Shown here: in pieces, positions 3-38,125 of the stretch | Position numbering within the stretch: the stretch's first letter is position 1 | How the letters are laid out: each line of letters begins with the position of its first letter | From: Dialister histaminiformans | GTDB lineage: Bacteria > Bacillota > Negativicutes > Veillonellales > Dialisteraceae | Reading direction: 5' to 3' | Assembly (NCBI RefSeq): GCF_900103425.1 | Contig: NZ_FMXA01000016.1 | Location: 1-38,445 of the forward strand | Length of the DNA: 38,445 nucleotides | Position numbers and translations under genes: made by a program | The notes under the pieces: model-generated | Told to the model about the DNA's origin: nothing | Databases searched by the model: none | What the model saw: the letters and a program-made list of their open reading frames with translations, nothing else

Positions 3-320
3 TTCACTAAACGATTCACTAAAGCAAGTCTTGACGAAGATTTTACTCTTTTTGAGCGTAAATTAAAGGAGCTGGGCATCAAGCACAAAAAGATTCGTCC
101 CTTTACCCCAAGACACAATGGGAAAGTAGAACGCAGTCATCGCAAGGATAACGAACGCTTTTATGCCACGCATTGTTTCTTCTCTTTTGAAGATTTCAGC
201 AGACAACTCAAAAGATATAATTATAGAGATTATAACTGCTTCCCAATGCGGCCACTTGGATGGAAATCTCCAAAAGATACACTCCATGATTTCATCAAGT
301 ACGGTGTAACATATGTTTGA
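3..320 (+). CDS. Transposase C-terminal part (IS481/IS3-type, DDE integrase core), cut by window edge
   Basis: An open frame enters from the left edge and gives 105 residues before a TGA. It contains the stretch RPFTPRHNGKVERSHRKD, the typical end of an rve (DDE) integrase core, in which the Glu of KVERSHR is the third catalytic acidic residue. The tail with the motif MRPLGWKSP is also usual for IS481-like or IS3-like transposases. The first two catalytic Asp residues lie outside the window. No terminal inverted repeat could be fixed downstream, so the exact right end of the element is unknown. It stands beyond the 3' end of rsmG in the opposite orientation. Family is a confident call; the IS group is not. 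Confidence 0.8.
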   Translation, partial: FTKRFTKASLDEDFTLFERKLKELGIKHKKIRPFTPRHNGKVERSHRKDNERFYATHCFFSFEDFSRQLKRYNYRDYNCFPMRPLGWKSPKDTLHDFIKYGVTYV

Positions 321-450
321 CAAACCAACACGTGCGAACCCAGCCAGATTTGCAATATCCGCAAAAATTTCTTCGAATGTTTTGAGACGTTGCCTTTGCA
401 TCAAAAGTGCAGGGTGTAGATTCTGCGAATAGCCTCCTGGTATATAAACT

Positions 451-492
451 AAAAGCAGAAAGAATCTTTTACCTTTGATCCTTTCTGCTTTT
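451..492. terminator. Hairpin terminator downstream of rsmG
   Basis: Arms 451-466 and 477-492 pair at 15 of 16 positions, with A-rich and T-rich outer ends, so it can act on either strand. It lies about 65 bases past the rsmG stop. Nearly the same arm sequence (AAGCAGAAAGAATC) is used in hairpins at 5673-5711 and 34471-34516. Confidence 0.65.
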
Positions 493-5396: not shown

Positions 5397-5976
5397 CCAT
5401 CCCCGGAAAAAAAGTAAAGCACAGTGGCCTGACGGCCACAGAACGGGAACATTGCATGTTCCCTCTCAGACTTCAGACGACAGACCGAGAATCCTTTGGA
5501 TTCTCTTTCAGACTGACAACCATACATTATGCGTTCCTATAATTTAACAATGTGGAATCAACTTTCCACCGTCTTCGACGGTCCCCCTTTCTCTCCAGAA
5601 AGGCGTTTCATTTTGTGCGTTACCTTTTGGATGCACTTTTCAATTCTTCTGCTAAGCATGCTGTAAAAACAAAAAGCAAAAAGAATCATTTCTTGTGATT
5701 CTTTCTGCTTTCCATATACAACCAATTTCCGCATCCCCCCTGCAATTCTAAAGGAATTGCACCGTCTCAAGAATCCATCAGGATTCTTGCCGTCTCGGGC
5801 CGAAGGACTGCGGTCCCGAGAATGGCTCTCCCATTCTTGCGGGCAGCAAACATAGTTTGCTGGGGGTGAAGTGGAAAACACTTTTACAAAAGGCTATTCG
5901 CAGAATCCACTTGCGGACAAGCGAAGCGCGTCTGCCAAACCTCCTACCTCCAACCTCACACCTCTTACCTCTCCTA
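5397..5976. repeat. Intergenic multi-hairpin array A (no gene)
   Basis: No convincing gene lies here. The stretch holds successive small inverted repeats: 5487-5505 (8-base arms, flanked by CAGAC repeats at 5467-5514), 5568-5582, 5586-5603 (CCTTTCT/AGAAAGG), 5673-5711, 5741-5761, 5768-5789, 5794-5820, 5819-5837 and 5845-5861 (AGCAAAC-ATA-GTTTGCT). Linkers such as CCGTCTC recur. The block ends with ACTTGCGGACAAGCGAAGCG (5909-5928), which has relatives at about 516-540 and, inverted, at 9755-9782. Several modules reappear in arrays C and D in the same order. Confidence 0.7.
5673..5711. terminator. Terminator-like hairpin inside array A
   Basis: Arms 5673-5688 and 5696-5711 match at 15 of 16 positions, with A-rich and T-rich ends. 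The 3' arm TGATTCTTTCTGCTTT is nearly identical to those at 477-492 and 34500-34516. It lies about 265 bases beyond the 5977-7773 gene, so it may terminate that transcript. Confidence 0.55.
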
Positions 5977-7773
5977 TCAGAACGCCGGATCTTCTGTGAG
6001 TTTTTTCTTTCTGTCCATAGTCATGGCATTCTCTGCGTTGATAGCATAGGCCGGGGACGAGAAATCATAGGCTTCGTGATAGAACGAAGTCCGGGCCTGG
6101 AACAGGCCAGACAGAGTATCAAATATCAGGTCATTGGTAAATGGTGTATGCTCGTGTGCCTTCATCTGCTTCATCAGTTCCGGATATTTTGCCTGGTACG
6201 ATGGGGACAGATATACGAAGAACGGAATATGGACCATATCAAAATAGAACGGTGACGTACCGTGGAAATGTTTCATGTTTTCCCCATGGTCTGAGAAATA
6301 GACCATAGCCTGCAGATTCATGTTATCCCGGGCATAATTGAAGATATTCTGCATAATCCAGTCGTCATAAGCAATGGTCATATCATAATCATGGTCAGGG
6401 TTATTCGGAGAAATGCCAAACTGATTCCAACGGGATACCGGAACACGTGTCTTATAGGTATAGTGGCTGCCGGTAATGTTGATGAACACCACCCGTTTCT
6501 TTGCCGGAGGTAATTCTTTCAGCACATTCAGAGCATATTCATCCGGATTCTGTTCCCAGTAGGTATGATCACACCTTTCAGCAATCATGGTGACGCCGGC
6601 GCTGGACAGGGAGCTGCGGTTCTTGAACGAAATCCAGTCGGTGGCGAATCCTGCCTTGCGAAGGGCATCCACCAGGCTGACTACGTGCCGCAGGTCGTTA
6701 TCCCCATACTGGTTAGCGCTGGTGAGCGCATAGCTGAGGGACATGAGCGTATTCGGGAAATTAGAGTAAGCCTTGTACCCCAGAGCGAAATCAGGAGTTT
6801 TCGCCATAGCGGAAAGCCAGGGCGTATTATTTTCCCGATATTCCGGATTGAAAGCCTTCATGTGGTCACGGTTGGCACTTTCCCCGATAATGACGATATA
6901 GGTTCCATCCGGTGCATTCTGCCCTTCCTGAAGCAGCATGGCCCCGGTATTCTTATTGATATTGTCATTCATCTGGGACAGTACCTGGAAGTCACTGCCC
7001 TTGCTTTCCACAGCGCGATAAATATTGACAGGGAACACATGAGTGAACATGCGGTAGAATCCGCCGATAAACAGGATAGACACCAGCACCAGGCCGATTT
7101 TCCCGCGCCGGCTCAGGCTCTTCACCGGACTTTCACAGGAAGCTGCTGCCTTAAGAAGGGAGAATGAACCCTTCATGGCCAGCACCAGCAGAGCGGCTAC
7201 CAGCACCACGGAGCCAACGGCCATAGCCGGAGAGGCTACGGTGGTAAAGAAAGATTTCACTTCATCGCTGTGTGTAGCCATAACGGCCATCATGGCGAAC
7301 ATATCCATTTCTCCGCCCATGACGATGTAATATCCCACATAGACAAAGGGCATGGCCAGAAGGAACAGCGCAAGCAGTCCCTGCACGATGCCCCAGGGGA
7401 TGCGCGCCTTCAGGCAATGGCGGCTCCACACGCCTGACACATAGGGAAGCGTGAAAATCAGGGCTGCATACATGTAGTAATCCCCCAGATGCTTCTTTTC
7501 CGGAAGATCTGCGAACCCGTATCCCCAGGTAAACACCGCTGCCCACAGCACAGGCAGTACCACCGCCCAGGGCAGCAGTTTCTTCAGGTACGAATCAGTA
7601 AACACAGAGAACATCCCCAGAGAGACAATCCATACCACGAGTACGGATGTCAGAAGCCGGGGATTCATATAACTTGCAAGGGTGGGATAATCCCCGCCGA
7701 GCTTAAGGATGCCTGCCGCTGCCACCACAAAAAGCAGGACGGTGAGCAGGGAGCGCTTCAGAATCTGTTTCAT
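5977..7773 (-). CDS. Phosphoethanolamine transferase-like membrane sulfatase-fold enzyme (copy 1)
   Basis: A 598-residue inner-membrane protein of the EptA/CptA type, expected to transfer phosphoethanolamine from phosphatidylethanolamine to lipid A or core sugars. The first 245 residues carry about six or seven hydrophobic segments (near 8-25, 42-60, 68-85, 100-118, 128-150, 185-203, 225-242). The alkaline-phosphatase-fold domain follows, with IIGESANRDHMKAFNPEY at about 295-312 as the nucleophile and metal site and FSDHGENMKHFHGTS at about 493-507 for metal binding. The nucleophile position holds Ser where EptA enzymes have Thr. The start at 7773 follows GAGGAAA; an upstream in-frame start at 7824 lacks a site. 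Its leader has a hairpin at 7798-7815. Paralogues lie at 17813-19633 and 19679-21397. The exact acceptor is unknown. Confidence 0.85.
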   Translation of the reverse strand: MKQILKRSLLTVLLFVVAAAGILKLGGDYPTLASYMNPRLLTSVLVVWIVSLGMFSVFTDSYLKKLLPWAVVLPVLWAAVFTWGYGFADLPEKKHLGDYYMYAALIFTLPYVSGVWSRHCLKARIPWGIVQGLLALFLLAMPFVYVGYYIVMGGEMDMFAMMAVMATHSDEVKSFFTTVASPAMAVGSVVLVAALLVLAMKGSFSLLKAAASCESPVKSLSRRGKIGLVLVSILFIGGFYRMFTHVFPVNIYRAVESKGSDFQVLSQMNDNINKNTGAMLLQEGQNAPDGTYIVIIGESANRDHMKAFNPEYRENNTPWLSAMAKTPDFALGYKAYSNFPNTLMSLSYALTSANQYGDNDLRHVVSLVDALRKAGFATDWISFKNRSSLSSAGVTMIAERCDHTYWEQNPDEYALNVLKELPPAKKRVVFINITGSHYTYKTRVPVSRWNQFGISPNNPDHDYDMTIAYDDWIMQNIFNYARDNMNLQAMVYFSDHGENMKHFHGTSPFYFDMVHIPFFVYLSPSYQAKYPELMKQMKAHEHTPFTNDLIFDTLSGLFQARTSFYHEAYDFSSPAYAINAENAMTMDRKKKLTEDPAF

Positions 7774-7880
7774 CACAATTTCCTCTTTTAAACACAACAG
7801 CAGAAAAGTCTGCTGCCACAACATTCCTATATTAGCAGAAAATTAAATTTCCGGCTAACGTTTTCATTCCTTTCTTTCAT

Positions 7881-9602: not shown

Positions 9603-10040
9603 AGTTCCACCTGCTTTGCAAAATATATTTGAAGAACCAAGATTTCTTACCACATCTTTATATCCTTATGATGCACCAGCCACATAAACCTGATGAAAAT
9701 AATTGTTAAACTTTTGTTAAACTTTGTAAGCCCTTAAAGAGAGGTACGAGGTTTGGCATACTCGCTTCGCTCGTCCGCAAAAGGTATAAAAAAACGGCTT
9801 CCAAATCTATTGGAAGCCGTTTTTTGAAGCTTTCAGATCTCACCTGCAGAAGTCGAAAACTTCTGTACATTAAGGAGCGAAGCCCAATCTCTTTTGGTCT
9901 GAAGAGAATCCGTCCCCTGCAAAACGTTGCGTTTTGCACAGCCCTGCCATGTTGATGTCAGAGCACAGCCTTATGAATCTTTTAAAGATTCATACAGCCC
10001 TAAGCCGAAGGCTTACAGCCCATGAGCTTCAGCTCATCCA
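9603..10040. repeat. Intergenic multi-hairpin array B (no gene)
   Basis: No gene is supported. Hairpins run at 9789-9825 (terminator), 9847-9865, 9918-9938 (TGCAAAAC/GTTTTGCA), 9972-9994, 10001-10015 (TAAGCC-GAA-GGCTTA) and 10022-10037 (ATGAGC-TTCA-GCTCAT), the last ending three bases before the YrbL-like stop. A CAGCC linker precedes most of them. 9755-9782 is an inverted copy of the GCGGACAAGCGAAGCG element of array A. Confidence 0.7.
9789..9825. terminator. Intrinsic terminator of the glycan operon
   Basis: Fifteen-base perfect arms AAAAAACGGCTTCCA (9789-9803) and their complement (9811-9825), with A/T ends usable on both strands. On the minus strand it is the first strong terminator after the run of genes 21397 to 10041. 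Confidence 0.8.
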
Positions 10041-11347: not shown

Positions 11348-13060
11348 TCATCCGCGAGGTAAAAATTTCTTATCGTATTCTTTTTCCGACTTTATCTTTT
11401 TCAGCTGATGATGCGGCCTCTTATCCATCTGCCGTCTCCACCATACGCCGGCCTTATCCCGCATCATCCTCATGTGGTGCCGTATCCGGAAGCTTCTGTC
11501 GGCCGGTACAAACACCGCTTCGCTCCACAGCCCGGGATTATCTTCTGATTCTACACGAATCACCAGTCGTTTTTCCAGATGCTGCAGCTGCTTATTTATA
11601 GATTCTTCCGTGGCCGGCTGGCCATCACTGTACCATTTCACCTGTCCCTGCACTCCATAAGTATATGCAGAAATTTCCGGCTTTTCTCCTGGCCAGATGG
11701 CCCAGTCGTAGGCAAAATGATTATTGATACAAATCTGGATTATGGAAAGCGGCAGACGGGTATTTTCCAGAATTTCCCATTCGGAAATTCCGGCTCCCTG
11801 TCCCTTTGATTCCAGGATTTCAAACTTCACCCAGGTTACTCCTGACTGGCGGGGCACGGTAATCAGGGTTTCCTGTCCCTGTTTCCGGAAGGGCCCTGTC
11901 ATGCAGGAATACCCGGTACTGAAGGTAAGTCGTCCTTTCAGCACCTGGTTTTCATCATCCATATTCCCATAAAAAGCTACGGCCTCGATATCCTGAGGCG
12001 TATCAAAGTCGCATCGGCACCATTTTTCCCTGTCCTCTGCGTCAGGTATCCAGAGATAATTTTCCATTGCCGGGTGTTTATCGGTAATATGTTCCGTATT
12101 CATCATCATGAAATCATGAAGATAGTCCCCGTTACCGGAGGAAACAGAAACCTTCCCCTCATATATCCGGTTGTCGGTTCGCCGGAGCCAGAAGACCTGA
12201 TCTCCGTTAATCAGGCGGATGGCCCGGGTAGATGCCTTCTGTGACATATGACAGCAAAGCGCCTTATAGATAATATTCTGCTTCAACCAAGACCGGCACG
12301 CCTCTTCCACAGGGAACCGTATACGCTGGTCCCATTCATACACCGGATTATCGGTTTCATATGCCTTATTCCAGAGCTGGTCTGTATTTATCACAGAAGA
12401 CAGAAGATGCGGACCATAAAAATCCTTTCTTCCTTCAAATCCCGTACTGTAGCAGAATCCCATAAGCACTACCGGCCGGTAATCATGACAGGTATGCAGA
12501 ATGGAATTCATTGCATGCAGAAATCCCAGATAGCACAGCCGGTGATCCGGGTGAGAGTCAAAATCCGTAGCCAGAATCATGGCCGGCTTATCCCGGAGGA
12601 TGACATCCTTTATGTCCTGAACCAGTCCATTCCATGTATACGCCTGATGTTTTCCCCGGTACTGCATGGCAAAGTCAGCATGTGTATCCATGCCATAGGT
12701 TTCCCTGCGTCCATCGCGTCCGGCAAGCGCTTCCTTCCTGCCGCTGACGAACACATTGCGTTCCCCATGCACTCCCCCATCAGGATACCCCAGGAAAACG
12801 ATATCTTTTTCCGGCACGCCAAGAAGAGACAGCGCCTGTATCGCCTCTTTCATGCGGACAAGTCCGCGATACTTCCAGTCTCCGTTGGTAGTAAATACGC
12901 AGATGACGCGGATGCCCAGATGGCGGGCATGGTAAATGACTGTCCCCGCCAGATTGATTTCATCATCCTCATGGGGAATGATAACCATCAGTGTACGGGA
13001 TGATTCATCCAGTCCTTCAAAGAAGGAGAAAAGCCCATTATTCTTTCCCTGTGCTGACAT
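11348..13060 (-). CDS. PIG-L/LmbE-type deacetylase with a long C-terminal extension
   Basis: The N-terminal 200 residues are a PIG-L (LmbE) zinc-dependent N-deacetylase, which removes acetyl groups from N-acetylglucosaminyl substrates. The zinc motif reads VIIPHEDDEINLAG (about residues 26-39) and the second site ATDFDSHPDHRLC (about 166-178). The remaining 350 residues are not part of the enzyme core. A segment near 340-450 (CDFDTPQDIEAVAFYGN through WVKFEILESKGQG) looks like a carbohydrate-binding discoidin-type fold, and the tail is very basic. No signal peptide is visible, so it probably works in the cytoplasm on a glycan precursor. The start at 13060 overlaps the previous gene by 23 bases; 13105 and 13084 are alternatives. 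Confidence 0.85.
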   Translation of the reverse strand: MSAQGKNNGLFSFFEGLDESSRTLMVIIPHEDDEINLAGTVIYHARHLGIRVICVFTTNGDWKYRGLVRMKEAIQALSLLGVPEKDIVFLGYPDGGVHGERNVFVSGRKEALAGRDGRRETYGMDTHADFAMQYRGKHQAYTWNGLVQDIKDVILRDKPAMILATDFDSHPDHRLCYLGFLHAMNSILHTCHDYRPVVLMGFCYSTGFEGRKDFYGPHLLSSVINTDQLWNKAYETDNPVYEWDQRIRFPVEEACRSWLKQNIIYKALCCHMSQKASTRAIRLINGDQVFWLRRTDNRIYEGKVSVSSGNGDYLHDFMMMNTEHITDKHPAMENYLWIPDAEDREKWCRCDFDTPQDIEAVAFYGNMDDENQVLKGRLTFSTGYSCMTGPFRKQGQETLITVPRQSGVTWVKFEILESKGQGAGISEWEILENTRLPLSIIQICINNHFAYDWAIWPGEKPEISAYTYGVQGQVKWYSDGQPATEESINKQLQHLEKRLVIRVESEDNPGLWSEAVFVPADRSFRIRHHMRMMRDKAGVWWRRQMDKRPHHQLKKIKSEKEYDKKFLPRG

Positions 13061-17812: not shown

Positions 17813-19633
17813 TTATTTCTTCAGTGCCGGATCTTCCATTACCTTATGCTTTCCATGAACGGTAAGTGCCTTATCTTCCGGCAGAGAATAGCTGCTATCA
17901 GTTATATCATACTGTGCATTCTGATAATTGTTTCCTGCCCGCAGGATGCTGCTCAGGGAATCAAACATGAGATCATTGGTAAAGAATTCATCCTTATGCT
18001 TTTCCACATTGCTTACAAGCTGCGGATAATCCTTCCGGTATTCCGGTGAGAAGTAGAAGAACACCGGAGTATGTACCATGGCGAAGGTGAATCCGCCTTC
18101 TCCGTGTCCATTGACCATATCTTCCCCATGGTCCGATGTATAAATGAGAGCCTTCAGGTTCAGATTCTTTTCTGCATAGTCAAAAATCCGGCTCATGATG
18201 TCATCAGTATATTTAACCGAAGTATCATACTGTACCACACTGTCTTTGGTACTGTTGTGTACTTCCGGATAGCCAGCCGGATATCTGTCCATGTACCGTG
18301 TATGTGAACCGTACATATGGATGATGACAAAATTATTTCCTTCCTTCGGTACCTTCTTCAGCAGGTCCAGAAGGGCCTTATCATCCTGCGGCGCCGGATT
18401 GGTCCACAGCTTATGCTTGGCTTCTTCCGCTACCAATCCATAAGCCGCCGTACCATTGGCCATGCGGTTATGATTGCCAAGCCACCAGGTCTGATAACCT
18501 GCCTTGTTGGCCACATCCAGAATGGATACAGCGTCAGAGAAGGACTGATCATGGTACTGGTTTTCGCTGGTGAGAACCTGTTCCAGTGCCAATGCGGTGG
18601 CCGGGAAATTGGAATATGCCTTCTTATACAGAATGGCCTGATTGGACTTCGCCATTCTGGAAAGCCACGGGGTGCTGTCATCCGTAAGCGCCGGATTGAA
18701 CGCGGTCATCCGGTCGCGGCACTCACTTTCCCCGATAATCAGGATAACTGTACCCTGAAGCGGTTTCCCCTGCTTATCCGTAATCTGCAGTTTCTTATAA
18801 TTTTCCTCATGTGACTTTTCCGCCTTGATTATGCTGGCCTGATACCGTCTTGCCAGCTTCAGTTCATACAGAGGATAGCAGCGGGGTACCCAGCGGCGAA
18901 TAGTAAGCCCGGCCATGATGAGGATAAGGACAATGAATATGGTCCTTGTCTTTCCGCTCCATATCATAGAGGGCATGACCGGAGAAACCTTCTTTTCCTT
19001 CCCTGTGGAAAACCAGCCCATAAACAGACCACCGACAATAATCAGAAGGGCTACCAATCCCAGGCCGGCCAGCTTTGCCGTATCAAAATGGGTAGTCATG
19101 AATCCGACAGTTTCCTGCCAGCTGGTCATAATGACCGGAATCATATCCTCTGCAGGGAACATGTTGTGATAAATAAAGAAATAAACCAGGTAGGAAATGG
19201 CGGACACGCTGAAAAAAATGACCGACAACGCGATAATCCCTGTGGCCGCCGGACGCACCTTTTTGTTCTTTTGCCCAGCCGCTGCCAGGAGTGTCAGTAC
19301 GATTCCCACAGAAAGGGCACTGAGATAATAGGGATTCACCAGGTCAAAATCCGCATGCCATCCGTGCATAGATGTGCCAATGACATAGGGATAGATGCTT
19401 ATCATCAGCAGATAGATGCCTCCCGCCGGAGCCCACAGCTGGGACAGCAGGTGCTTCTTTACTATCACCTGCCCCAGAATGAGGATAACCAGCCCCATAG
19501 CAAAATCACGCATGCTGTTATGCCATGCCAGGATACGTCCGATGCCGCAAAAATAAAACCAGGCAAAGGTAATCACCTGAAGAATCAGCGCTTCTATACC
19601 TGCCCAAATCTCAAAATTCCATTTCTTACCCAT
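17813..19633 (-). CDS. Phosphoethanolamine transferase-like membrane enzyme (copy 2)
   Basis: A 606-residue paralogue of 5977-7773 with an N-terminal membrane half of about seven segments and a periplasmic sulfatase-fold domain. The nucleophile site reads ILIIGESECRDRMTAFNPAL (about residue 300-320), followed by TPWLSRMAKS, YSNFPATALAL, GSHTRYMDRYPAGY and YTSDHGEDMVNGHGEG for metal binding. As in the other copies, Ser stands where EptA has Thr. It is 45 bases after copy 3 and 60 before the ligase gene, so modification and assembly genes would be made together. Substrate may differ from copy to copy. Confidence 0.86.
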   Translation of the reverse strand: MGKKWNFEIWAGIEALILQVITFAWFYFCGIGRILAWHNSMRDFAMGLVILILGQVIVKKHLLSQLWAPAGGIYLLMISIYPYVIGTSMHGWHADFDLVNPYYLSALSVGIVLTLLAAAGQKNKKVRPAATGIIALSVIFFSVSAISYLVYFFIYHNMFPAEDMIPVIMTSWQETVGFMTTHFDTAKLAGLGLVALLIIVGGLFMGWFSTGKEKKVSPVMPSMIWSGKTRTIFIVLILIMAGLTIRRWVPRCYPLYELKLARRYQASIIKAEKSHEENYKKLQITDKQGKPLQGTVILIIGESECRDRMTAFNPALTDDSTPWLSRMAKSNQAILYKKAYSNFPATALALEQVLTSENQYHDQSFSDAVSILDVANKAGYQTWWLGNHNRMANGTAAYGLVAEEAKHKLWTNPAPQDDKALLDLLKKVPKEGNNFVIIHMYGSHTRYMDRYPAGYPEVHNSTKDSVVQYDTSVKYTDDIMSRIFDYAEKNLNLKALIYTSDHGEDMVNGHGEGGFTFAMVHTPVFFYFSPEYRKDYPQLVSNVEKHKDEFFTNDLMFDSLSSILRAGNNYQNAQYDITDSSYSLPEDKALTVHGKHKVMEDPALKK

Positions 19634-19678: not shown

Positions 19679-21397
19679 TTACTGCCTGTCCTCTGCAATA
19701 TGTACCCTGCCATGCATGGTCATTGCCTCATCCTGTGAAAGATCATAGTCCTGACTAGACAGGTCAAAACGGTCCGTGCGCCCATAATTTGATGCCTGCA
19801 TGAGGCCGCAAAGGGTATCAAACACTAAATCATTGGTAAACACACAGTCCTGATGACTGCGCAGAGATTCAGCCCTGTCCTTATGTTTCTTCCTATACGA
19901 CGGAGAAAGATAGATCCACAGAGGAATCCGGGTCATATCAAAGGTAAAATGTCCGGTCCCGTGGGTATATTTCATATCTTCGCTGTGGTCCGATACATAC
20001 ATGATAACCGACGGATGTAATTTCTTCTCTGCCTTTTCCCACATCCTGCGGAGGATGTCATCGGTATAGGCAATAGAGGTATCATATTCGGAAATCCGCT
20101 GGCTGCTTCCGGAAATTACCGGGAAATCCACCGGATATCTGTCCCCATAACGGAGATGGCTGCCCATGATATGAAGAATCACCAGATGATGCCCATTTTC
20201 AGGAATAGTATCCATCACATCCAGAAGCTGGGCATCATCCCCGGCAGGCGCCGGTACTTCCACTACGTTATCCGCAGTGTGCATAAGGTACTCAGTCAGG
20301 TAATCGTTCCCCTTATGGTTGGTGCACCACCAGGTCTCATATCCGGCTGCCCTGGCTGCATCGATGATGGATACCAGATAATCTTTCGAATGATGATTAT
20401 ACTGGTTCATCCCGGTGAGCATCCAGCTTATGGTCTGCGCCGTCTGGGTAAAGCAGGCATAGGTTTTCGGGAAGAAGAAAAATCCATCCTCCACCTTAAC
20501 CGCAGATTGCCACGGTGTGGTTTCCTGCGGATACTCCGGATTAAAGGCCTTCATATGATCCCGGTTGGCGCTTTCCCCGATTATGAGGAATATATTACCA
20601 TCCGGTTCTTCTTCCGCTTTCTGCTTAAAGCGGTGCTCCAGGTTGTATACATGTACTTCTCCGGCCTGTTTCATTTCCCGTATACTGTTTCCCGCCAGCC
20701 GGATTTCCCGGAGCGGAAAGCAGTCCAGGGCGCATTTAATCATGACGATTGCGGAAACAAGCGCCACAACCGCGCTCCCTTTTGTCCAGATTCCCATCTC
20801 TCCCATGCCGGCCCATATCATGGCCAGCCCGGCCAGAACCAGCACAAGGAATCCCAGGATACCGCCCAGCAGAACGTTTCTTTTAATCTGCCCTTCCATG
20901 TATGCCCGTACCTCCTGCACATGGGTCATCAGCACAGGCACCATATCTGCCGCCTGGAACAGATTCCCATAAATGAAGAAGTAAATGACGTAGGCCAGCG
21001 CCGCTATGAGCGACCACAGCAACAGGATAGCTTCCAGACAGGCCACGCCGGTTCCTCCCCAGGGAGAATGCGTCAGCAGCAGAAACAGAGCCGCACCAGC
21101 GCTTCCTGTAAGGAATTCCCCTTTAATCCGGGACAATTCCCTGTCTTCTCTGGACTCCGCCCGGCCGCGGCACCACATATAGGGAACCGTCCACAGCAGT
21201 AAGAAATATATCGGAGCCAGAGAAGCCGGAGAAACCAGATGTATATTGCCTGCCCATGCAGCAGCCAGAAGGAGAAGTCCTCCCAGGACTCCCATACGCA
21301 GTCCGCGCCAGGTCCCTATGTGCAGACAGCCAAAAAGGGCCGCCGCACTATAAAGACCAGCCATCGTGACCAGAATAAGTAAACTGTTTTCCAACAT
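19679..21397 (-). CDS. Phosphoethanolamine transferase-like membrane enzyme (copy 3)
   Basis: The 572-residue protein opens the likely nine-gene operon. Its membrane half has about seven hydrophobic segments, ending at CFPLREIRLAGNSI. The catalytic half shows IFLIIGESANRDHMKAFNPEY, TPWQSAVKVEDGF, TGMNQYNHHSKDYLVSII, ILHIMGSHLRYGDRYPVDFP and MYVSDHSEDMKYTHGTGHF. In the last motif Ser replaces the Gly of SDHGE found in copies 1 and 2, close to the metal site. AAGGAGTC lies nine bases before the ATG. Upstream is array C; a promoter could not be placed with confidence. Confidence 0.86.
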   Translation of the reverse strand: MLENSLLILVTMAGLYSAAALFGCLHIGTWRGLRMGVLGGLLLLAAAWAGNIHLVSPASLAPIYFLLLWTVPYMWCRGRAESREDRELSRIKGEFLTGSAGAALFLLLTHSPWGGTGVACLEAILLLWSLIAALAYVIYFFIYGNLFQAADMVPVLMTHVQEVRAYMEGQIKRNVLLGGILGFLVLVLAGLAMIWAGMGEMGIWTKGSAVVALVSAIVMIKCALDCFPLREIRLAGNSIREMKQAGEVHVYNLEHRFKQKAEEEPDGNIFLIIGESANRDHMKAFNPEYPQETTPWQSAVKVEDGFFFFPKTYACFTQTAQTISWMLTGMNQYNHHSKDYLVSIIDAARAAGYETWWCTNHKGNDYLTEYLMHTADNVVEVPAPAGDDAQLLDVMDTIPENGHHLVILHIMGSHLRYGDRYPVDFPVISGSSQRISEYDTSIAYTDDILRRMWEKAEKKLHPSVIMYVSDHSEDMKYTHGTGHFTFDMTRIPLWIYLSPSYRKKHKDRAESLRSHQDCVFTNDLVFDTLCGLMQASNYGRTDRFDLSSQDYDLSQDEAMTMHGRVHIAEDRQ

Positions 21398-21903
21398 AGA
21401 ACTGCGACTCCTTTAGGATAGATGAGCAGCCTGTAAGGCTGCAGACAGGGAATCAGATGATTTCCTGTCAGACATCCGACATTAGACCGAAAATCCTTCA
21501 GATTTTCATTCAGACAAAACAAAAACTTCCTTATTACCCGTGCAATCCACATAAGATTGCACGGACTCAAGCCAGAGTCTTGCAGACATATGAGCCTTCG
21601 GCTCATACGAATCCGGGAATCCGGAACGGATTCCTGCGGACAGCAAACGCAGTTTGCAGCATTATGCTATTCACAGAATTTCATTAAGAATGGTATCCAG
21701 GTCCTTATTAAAGCTGGAGATTGGACATCGCAAACAATGCCGCACTGCTGCTCATACGGAGCAAGGACAAAGTCTTGTCCTTGCTGGCTACAAGTCTTCT
21801 ATTTTAGAAATTTGCAGAATTTCAATAAGAGAGGTAGCCCGGTCTGCTAAAAAGCTTGAAGTTGGAATTCATAAACAATGTTTCTGAGCCATTCCTGCGG
21901 ACC
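21398..21903. repeat. Intergenic multi-hairpin array C (no gene)
   Basis: Hairpins follow one another at 21426-21442, 21444-21469, 21489-21507 (with CAGAC flanks, 21469-21515), 21541-21561, 21564-21579, 21589-21607 (TATGAGCC-TTC-GGCTCATA), 21616-21634, 21643-21657 (GCAAAC-GCA-GTTTGC) and 21761-21784 (ten-base perfect arms). The sequences AATGGTATCCAGGTCC (21689-21704) and TACAAGTCTTCT (21789-21800) return in array D. No reading frame here looks like a gene. Confidence 0.7.
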
Positions 21904-28439: not shown

Positions 28440-29267
28440 GGCAGCAAGAGGAAAAATGAAAGGGGAATAGATGCTGCGTATAGCCTCTTTTATAAAAAAG
28501 TGAGAAGCAACATATCCCATGGATTCACATAGTGGAATCAAGAATGAGCTAACGCTCATGGTCGTCAAGAGTTGCTTTGCAACTCTCGGGTTGGCAAATT
28601 CCTTCGGAATTCGGGTCGGTGCCTTAACATCAAAAGGCAGGTCGGTGTGCTACTTTGGGAGCACAGGGGATGGATGTTGCACATGGCTTTTTCATATAAA
28701 GCAAAAACATGGCATACATCAGCACGTTTTCCTATTTCCAACACAGAGAAATCAACTATCCCCCGACGTTCGTTGGATTCGAGACAATGGATTGTCTCGA
28801 ATGCCTGCCAATCCTTAATGTCTTATATATGGCAGTCTGGCGTGGCAACAATGTCTTGTTGCCACGGGATACAAGTCTTCTGTCTAAGAAATTCATTGAA
28901 TTTCCATAAAAATGGTATCCAGGTCCGTATTAAAGCCTGATAAAAGTAAGAACGCAGATTTCTGACTAAAACAAACCTGGAAATCGGGTATCACATATAA
29001 CTTTTTGCGCCAGATCCCCAGAAAGGAGCTGCGTACAGGATTCTAGTCTTTTTGTAGGCTTTAGCATTCTTAGCTTTTATAAGCAATATTCCTCTTCCCC
29101 CCTTGTAAAACAGCATGTTTTACACCGCCTCGAGCCGAAGGCTTGCCGACCTATGAGCCTTGGCTCATACCGTCTCGAATCCCGAAGGGATTTGCGGACA
29201 GCAAACATAGTTTGCGGCTTTTCGGTCTACTCTATGGCGAATAGCCTCATTGTAAAAATTAAGGCAT
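28440..29267. repeat. Intergenic multi-hairpin array D (no gene)
   Basis: Hairpins: 28544-28559 (ATGAGC/GCTCAT), 28568-28586, 28597-28611, 28621-28638, 28646-28665, 28777-28802 (twelve-base arms), 28841-28866 (ten-base arms), then 29104-29124, 29133-29143, 29152-29169 (TATGAGCC family), 29178-29192 and 29201-29215 (GCAAAC-ATA-GTTTGC). 28474-28533 resembles 37832-37900. 28866-28930 repeats the TACAAGTCTTCT and AATGGTATCCAGGTCC segments of array C. Nothing here looks translated. Confidence 0.7.
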
Positions 29268-37820: not shown

Positions 37821-38125
37821 GATTATGTATTCTACGAATAGTCTCTTTATAAAAAAGACGAAGAGCAGCATATTACCGCTATTCCTATGGATTCACATAC
37901 AGCATTCTACTTTCCACCGTCATTCGTCGGTCCCCGTGACTGCAGACCAGTCCACCATGCATACAACTCAGGACGATGTGAAGGCTGTGCAGAAGCGTAC
38001 CTTCTGCAGGAGAAAAAAGATTCTGAATATTTGCAACCTTTCCTATATTCCAACATAGAGGAATCTACTTTCCACCAGCCGCCAACAAAGACCGGGCTGT
38101 CAATATTATTGAAATCAAAGATTTC
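37821..38125. repeat. Intergenic repeat array F (no gene)
   Basis: 37832-37900 resembles 28474-28533 (shared TATAAAAAAG and ATGGATTCACATA). CTTTCCACCGTCATTCGTCG (37910-37929) resembles 5562-5581. CAACATAGAGGAATCTACTT (38052-38071) resembles the segments at 28740 and 34231. These are pieces of the same repeat family as arrays A, D and E. No gene is visible. Confidence 0.6.

Follow-up and report, generated by a model that had tools for sequence, protein, structure and literature searches.

A probable new form of BIME/REP-like repeat: mosaic palindrome arrays between the genes of Dialister histaminiformans

The stretch of 38,445 nucleotides analyzed here (the window) contains members of a family of intergenic arrays in which several different palindromes follow each other in a fixed order, connected by short constant linkers. 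The family is dispersed to many intergenic sites, is restricted to one species among the genomes searched, exchanges hairpins between its members, conserves its linkers, and changes the two arms of its hairpins in pairs. These arrays are probably non-autonomous mosaic palindromes of the BIME/REP kind, spread and rewritten at the DNA level. In kind they compare with the BIMEs and REPs of enterobacteria, and in behavior with BIMEs and with the GC clusters of yeast mitochondria, which are mobile and merge (PMC4478555). Most repeat families conserve the repeated sequence, whereas here the palindromes vary freely yet remain palindromic, and conservation is limited to the short links.

There are two related array types. 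Type B is the set described in an earlier note on this DNA, and on the minus strand the three window arrays are indeed collinear, each being a row of about five near-perfect hairpins with linkers of 6 to 8 nt. They are located at 5741..5863 (H1 5860-5846, H2 5837-5819, a degenerate H3 5808-5797, H4 5789-5768 and H5 5761-5741, with linkers tgcccgca, cgggaccgca, gagacgg and agacgg), 21540..21660 (H1 21657-21643, H2 21634-21616, H3 21607-21589, H4 21579-21565 and H5 21561-21541) and 29101..29218 (H1 29215-29201, H2 29192-29178, H3 29169-29152, H4 29143-29133 and H5 29124-29104), all on the minus strand. Their matches to the covariance model R1 have E-values of 9e-26, 1.9e-35 and 7e-34, respectively, all three copies being part of the training alignment. 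H1 is GCAAACnnnGTTTGC (GCAAAC/GTTTGC), followed by a linker of the GTCCGCA type (TGTCCGCA or TGCCCGCA) and by H2, with arms of the AATCC type (AATCCC/GGGATT, GGAATCCG/CGGATTCC or AGAATGG/CCATTCT). In two of the three type B arrays, those at 21.6 and 29.2 kb, H3 is a TATGAGCC hairpin (TATGAGC(C)/GGCTCATA). Further linkers are GAGACGG, GGTCGGCA and GAGGCGG, and the final hairpin is of the TGCAAT type (TGCAATTC, TGCAATC or TGTAAAAC, each with its complement). The GAATAGC-like segment that had been placed at the start of this order is no fixed part of the type B array and corresponds to the tail hairpin (GGATTCtgcGAATAGCC) of an adjoining element. At 5.9 and 21.67 kb, it is located before H1 and has the same sense, but it is inverted (GGCTATTCGCC) at 29.24 kb. 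Next to the first array, this neighboring module extends over 5864..5936 on the minus strand and consists of a GCAGACGCGCTTCGCTTGTCCGCA segment followed by the tail hairpin GGATTCtgcGAATAgCC with CTTTTgtAAAAG; other copies of it are located on contigs C3, C24 and C9.

Two more window arrays, beyond those listed in the earlier note, are of type A or similar to it. The first, at 28541..28713 on the plus strand (model R2, E 1.1e-41; in the training alignment), has a ATGAGCtaacGCTCAT head, four more hairpins including the conserved TGCCTTAACATCAAAAGGCA, and the tail hairpin GGATGTtgcACATgGC, with linkers ggtcgtca/cgggttggca/cgggtcgg/ggtcgg. The second, at 9879..10040 on the minus strand (R2, E 1.3e-24; partly in the training alignment), has GGGCTG linkers and an ATGAGC head together with TAAGCCttcGGCTTA, TATGAATCTTtaaAAGATTCATA, TGCTCTGACATCAACATGGCA and TGCAAAACG..CGTTTTGCA. 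A weaker, possibly decayed type A match at 310..461 (plus strand; R2, E 2e-5) overlaps a 151-aa ORF of uncertain reality. The general order of type A is a head AGATGAGC..GCTCAT, GGTCGG (or GGGCTG) linkers, the conserved hairpin, a last hairpin and a tail hairpin. One of its hairpins has the conserved loop CTTAACATCA, and the tail-hairpin arms change jointly (ATTC/GAAT, ATAC/GTAT, ATGT/ACAT). One element measures ca. 120 to 200 bp and consists of a head hairpin (ATGAGC..GCTCAT or GCAAAC..GTTTGC), about three linked hairpins, a TGYRAA..TTYRCA hairpin and a tail. Since an identical hairpin, e.g., TATGAGCC, is found with different linkers, modules have been exchanged between arrays. A third kind of unit, the companion module, has two hairpins (CCTTTCT..AGAAAGG, ggg, hairpin ggatagttgattccac), with a variable hairpin of its own, and is frequent near arrays. 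In the window, it is located at 5534..5605 (minus strand; CCTTTCTggagAGAAAGG ggg ACCGTCgaaGACGGT ggaaagttgattccac..., a site of the kind in which a type A array is inserted elsewhere), and the end of a further copy is at 38040..38076 (plus strand; TTCCTATATTCCAACATAGAGGAATCTACTTTCCACC).

Clusters of hairpins are more frequent than in shuffled sequences that keep the dinucleotide frequencies: the window has three clusters of at least four hairpins (0 to 1 in 10 shuffles), and 424 kb of the genome has 10 clusters of at least three stems of at least 6 bp (0.2 in shuffles). The linker GGTCGG is flanked by hairpins on both sides in 21 of 178 occurrences, versus 1 of 489 for the reversed word GGCTGG. 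Covariance models recovered at least 66 (R1) and 71 (R2) matches in the 1.7-Mb genome, of which ca. 0.7 Mb was read as separate stretches, and merging left at least 85 distinct loci at E<1e-3; these counts are probably a lower bound because 150 candidates were scored per model. The E-values are approximate, and a match is inevitable for the copies used in training. Neither outcome named as refuting in the earlier note (no further copies, or order and linkers matching no better than shuffled sequence) was obtained, given these loci and a covariation above both controls. Arrays are nearly all intergenic (2 of 67 overlap an ORF of at least 150 aa), and their density is uneven, with 10 on the 29-kb contig C36, 5 on the 261-kb contig C15, and 7 to 10 per 20 to 30 kb on C36, C33, C39 and C9. 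Four type A matches extend to the end of a contig, in line with the breaking of assemblies at repeats. The family has the general features of BIME-like repeats, being high-copy, extragenic and palindromic, with mosaic clusters in which array types have hairpins in common.

Outside this genome, the search in relatives proposed in the earlier note gave no credible match to the covariance models in 11 genomes, one of them of the same genus; the single match, in G002 (E 0.005), had no array. A 19-base type A core is present in 12 copies in the genome (up to two mismatches), while 59 other genomes had only two matches, both with two mismatches. We also scanned 257 Gb of contigs (own genome excluded) for a 16-mer, and the 68 matches, in scattered taxa, were at about chance level. 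Two array patterns gave four matches in a viral collection, all lacking an array; their surroundings read as coding DNA of viral contigs of ca. 61 kb, and we discarded them as chance. Searches of the literature on this bacterial group for intergenic repeats with hairpins, palindromes or a modular build found no description.

Several copies suggest mobility. The cores at C33:3239, C35:15633 and C39:9268 are near-identical, their left flanks are unrelated, and the junction is found at AG|ATGAGC. The C33 copy interrupts a companion module, and its flanks, once joined, align to an uninterrupted paralogous site at C35, which gives an insert of ca. 195 bp. The empty site suggested as a check in the earlier note exists in one case, as a paralogous site and not as a difference between strains, and it could also have arisen by recombination among resident repeats. 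ACATA(CA) is present at both ends of the C33 insert, at this one site; no target-site duplication was seen by eye in the other copies, and none is consistent among array copies. The arrays do not have the terminal inverted repeats of MITEs, as the highest identity between their ends was 0.37, below the 95th percentile of shuffled sequences (0.46). Among the three options originally put forward for these arrays (non-autonomous mobile element, structured RNA, or nucleoid or protein binding array), the first is the best supported, by near-identical copies with unrelated flanks, the paralogous empty site, species restriction and hairpin exchange.

The arms of the hairpins change together. Among eight diverged copies of type A, both sides had changed in 28 of 36 pairs, and both-side changes amounted to 56 cells versus 22.4 with shuffled partners; the covariation score was 0.477 versus 0.219 shuffled and at most 0.164 in slid registers. 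In type B, there were 22 both-side-changed cells versus 8.2, with a score of 0.293 versus 0.135. Because the stems were drawn on the same sequences, the share of paired cells is overestimated. A firmer measure is how far both-side changes exceed those with shuffled partners, although kinship among copies may inflate this as well. From this pattern, we infer that the arms are rewritten by templated copying, and the same covariation could arise if pairing were under selection. Elements would spread as DNA, probably while single-stranded in replication or repair, helped in trans by some enzyme or by recombination between resident repeats. Each arm would be rewritten by templated copying from the opposite one (quasi-palindrome correction), so that stems stay near-perfect while their sequence drifts. 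In transcribed copies, RNA hairpins will form and there may be local effects on mRNA ends, which we regard as a by-product. The arrays offer a natural experiment on whether selection or templated repair keeps genomic palindromes perfect.

Arrays of the same design, with the linker AGGGTTCTTAAGTTTGA, were found in a genome of another genus of the family (G007). This linker is present 323 times in G007 and 70 times in G010, a genome of the same genus; G011 has one copy and 36 others have none, and the backwards-control word had no occurrences. In 460 kb sampled, 121 of 122 linkers adjoin a perfect hairpin; there are 61 distinct hairpins, with several pair types per stem position. G007 also has a two-hairpin module (L138:380-441 and 12869-12930; CCCCC..GGGGG aag TCCGGC..GCCGGA tagggggagg) with a layout that resembles the companion module. 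When strands were assigned by the large-scale GC skew of the sampled stretches, 58 arrays were on the lagging strand, opposite to the G-rich strand, and 27 on the leading strand (p 0.001), and the bias had the same direction for leading, lagging, convergent and divergent neighbor genes. Among the exact linker copies listed on contig C1 of G007, 20 are on the minus and 7 on the plus strand before 620 kb, and none and 19, respectively, after it (p 2.5e-7). The strand preference of linkers on this contig flips near the switch of GC skew (ca. 600 to 650 kb), apparently independently of gene direction. A first count by local third-codon-position skew, which is noisy, gave 39 versus 38, i.e., no bias, and the large-scale assignment was chosen after that result was known, so the polarity should be taken as a lead rather than as established. 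It suggests a replication-linked process at the DNA level in that species and, being independent of gene direction, makes the single-strand route directly testable. Freely varying palindromes, with unrelated linkers in two genera, are likewise a natural experiment on the spread of REP-like repeats without a transposase.

Two kinds of mobilizing enzyme were tested, and neither is common to the three carriers. The sole Y1_Tnp match in the D. histaminiformans genome is a truncated IS200-like TnpA fragment of 92 aa (L149:1393-1671; G000:C30, ca. 42.7 kb), and there is none in G007 or G010. Two ORFs, putatively cas1 and cas2, directly precede this fragment. Reverse transcriptase matches number four in G007, with none in this genome or G010, and a route by reverse transcription was rejected because the enzyme is present in only one of the three carriers.

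REP, BIME and REPIN elements are likewise short extragenic palindromes with many copies, species restriction, mosaic clusters and complementary stem changes (PMC3733652, PMC3116915). They consist of one palindrome, single or in head-to-head pairs, while here constant linkers join ca. five different palindromes, always in the same order. REPs are tagged with GTAG or CGTC and often have RAYT genes (PMC3733652, PMC3116915), and CGTC REPs likewise lack a dedicated transposase (PMC3733652). The arrays described here differ in having neither tag nor RAYT: within 6 nt of 93 distinct hairpins, GTAG was found in 0/93 and CGTC in 3/93, and no single-copy RAYT gene flanked by repeats was found in this genome, where the only candidate is the truncated IS200-like TnpA, or in G007 and G010, where there is none. 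For this reason, we place the family as a new form of dispersed palindromic repeats. Other modular repeats are alike in part. BOX elements of Streptococcus are modular intergenic repeats with a head, a variable middle and an end, which form stem-loops, and have one repeated middle module. They are comparable (by description, not sequence) in this modular stem-loop build, but in the arrays each hairpin differs. Mitochondrial GC clusters and double-hairpin elements usually have one or two hairpins. They are organellar, while the arrays here are longer and in bacterial chromosomes. The yeast GC clusters are otherwise similar as mobile-looking palindromes with hairpin merger and shuffling and no established enzyme (PMC4478555), and so are the mitochondrial double-hairpin elements, as far as they are cited in PMC5910586. 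STAR elements of Staphylococcus are also intergenic, alternate a GC-rich constant motif with a variable spacer, and have no established mechanism of spread (PMC3532100). They are reported as direct repeats of 14 bp whose recurring spacers measure at least 40 bp, and secondary structure is not mentioned in PMC3532100; here, the spacers are near-perfect hairpins and their order is fixed.

A possible but clearly less probable reading than that of BIME/REP-like arrays is that these are mobile palindrome arrays of a class apart, present in two genera of one family, each genus with linkers of its own. Such arrays would spread without a dedicated Y1 transposase or reverse transcriptase, via a replication-linked single-strand process, and their arms would be continually rewritten by templated repair, with only the linkers inherited as sequence.

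It is unlikely that the arrays are primarily a family of structured RNAs, either cis elements or small RNAs, in which selection on the transcript maintains the hairpins. The strong covariation, the conserved type A loop and the low folding energy of two of six copies (z -6.8 and -5.3) would fit this explanation, but for the other four the gain in folding over shuffled sequences is modest (z -1.2 to -3.3), no match above the gathering score was found in Rfam, and the many loci with near-identical copies and mosaic exchange speak against it. A functional RNA on the array strand would make G.U outnumber A.C, whereas single stem mismatches on that strand are 19 A.C and 9 G.T, i.e., there is no G-U signature. 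Arrays run with their flanking genes in 13 cases and against them in 12, and in this genome 32 are on the lagging and 30 on the leading strand, with no polarity. They are commoner than expected between convergent genes (17 of 50 classified versus 67 of 433 junctions), and no T-run follows their ends. The absence of bias relative to genes or replication, together with the missing G-U signature, argues against transcribed RNA as the main identity, and this option of the earlier note is not upheld.

Just as improbable is a DNA-binding array, for a nucleoid protein, gyrase or another protein, with the linkers as predicted recognition sites and the hairpins as spacers or cruciforms. In its favor, it is the linkers that are conserved, their spacing is regular, and both gyrase and IHF are known to bind to BIMEs in E. 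coli. However, the linkers vary by array type within one genome (GGTCGG, GGGCTG, GAGACGG) and wholly between genera, the density differs strongly by contig, as between C36 and C15, and binding at linkers leaves the paired arm changes unexplained.

We find it very doubtful that this is a strict REP/RAYT system whose Y1 transposase was missed in the draft assembly. The palindromes are extragenic, the draft is broken at repeats and the genome does have one Y1_Tnp fragment, but the fragment is IS200-like and truncated, the REP tags are absent or rare, and G007, with all its linkers, has no Y1_Tnp. Ordinary terminators, or hairpins formed by chance in intergenic DNA of biased composition, can practically be dismissed, in spite of some short, terminator-like loops (TTC/GAA), by the lack of a terminal T-run, the common order and linkers, the excess over shuffles, the 85 loci and the hairpin-flanked linkers; with constant parts of only 6 to 8 nt and no tandem repeat array in the window, CRISPR does not fit either, and the earlier note was right on both counts.

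Three proteins with sulfatase domains are also encoded in the window, on the minus strand (5977-7824, 17813-19633 and 19679-21397), and have common diverged direct repeats (families D1 and D3).
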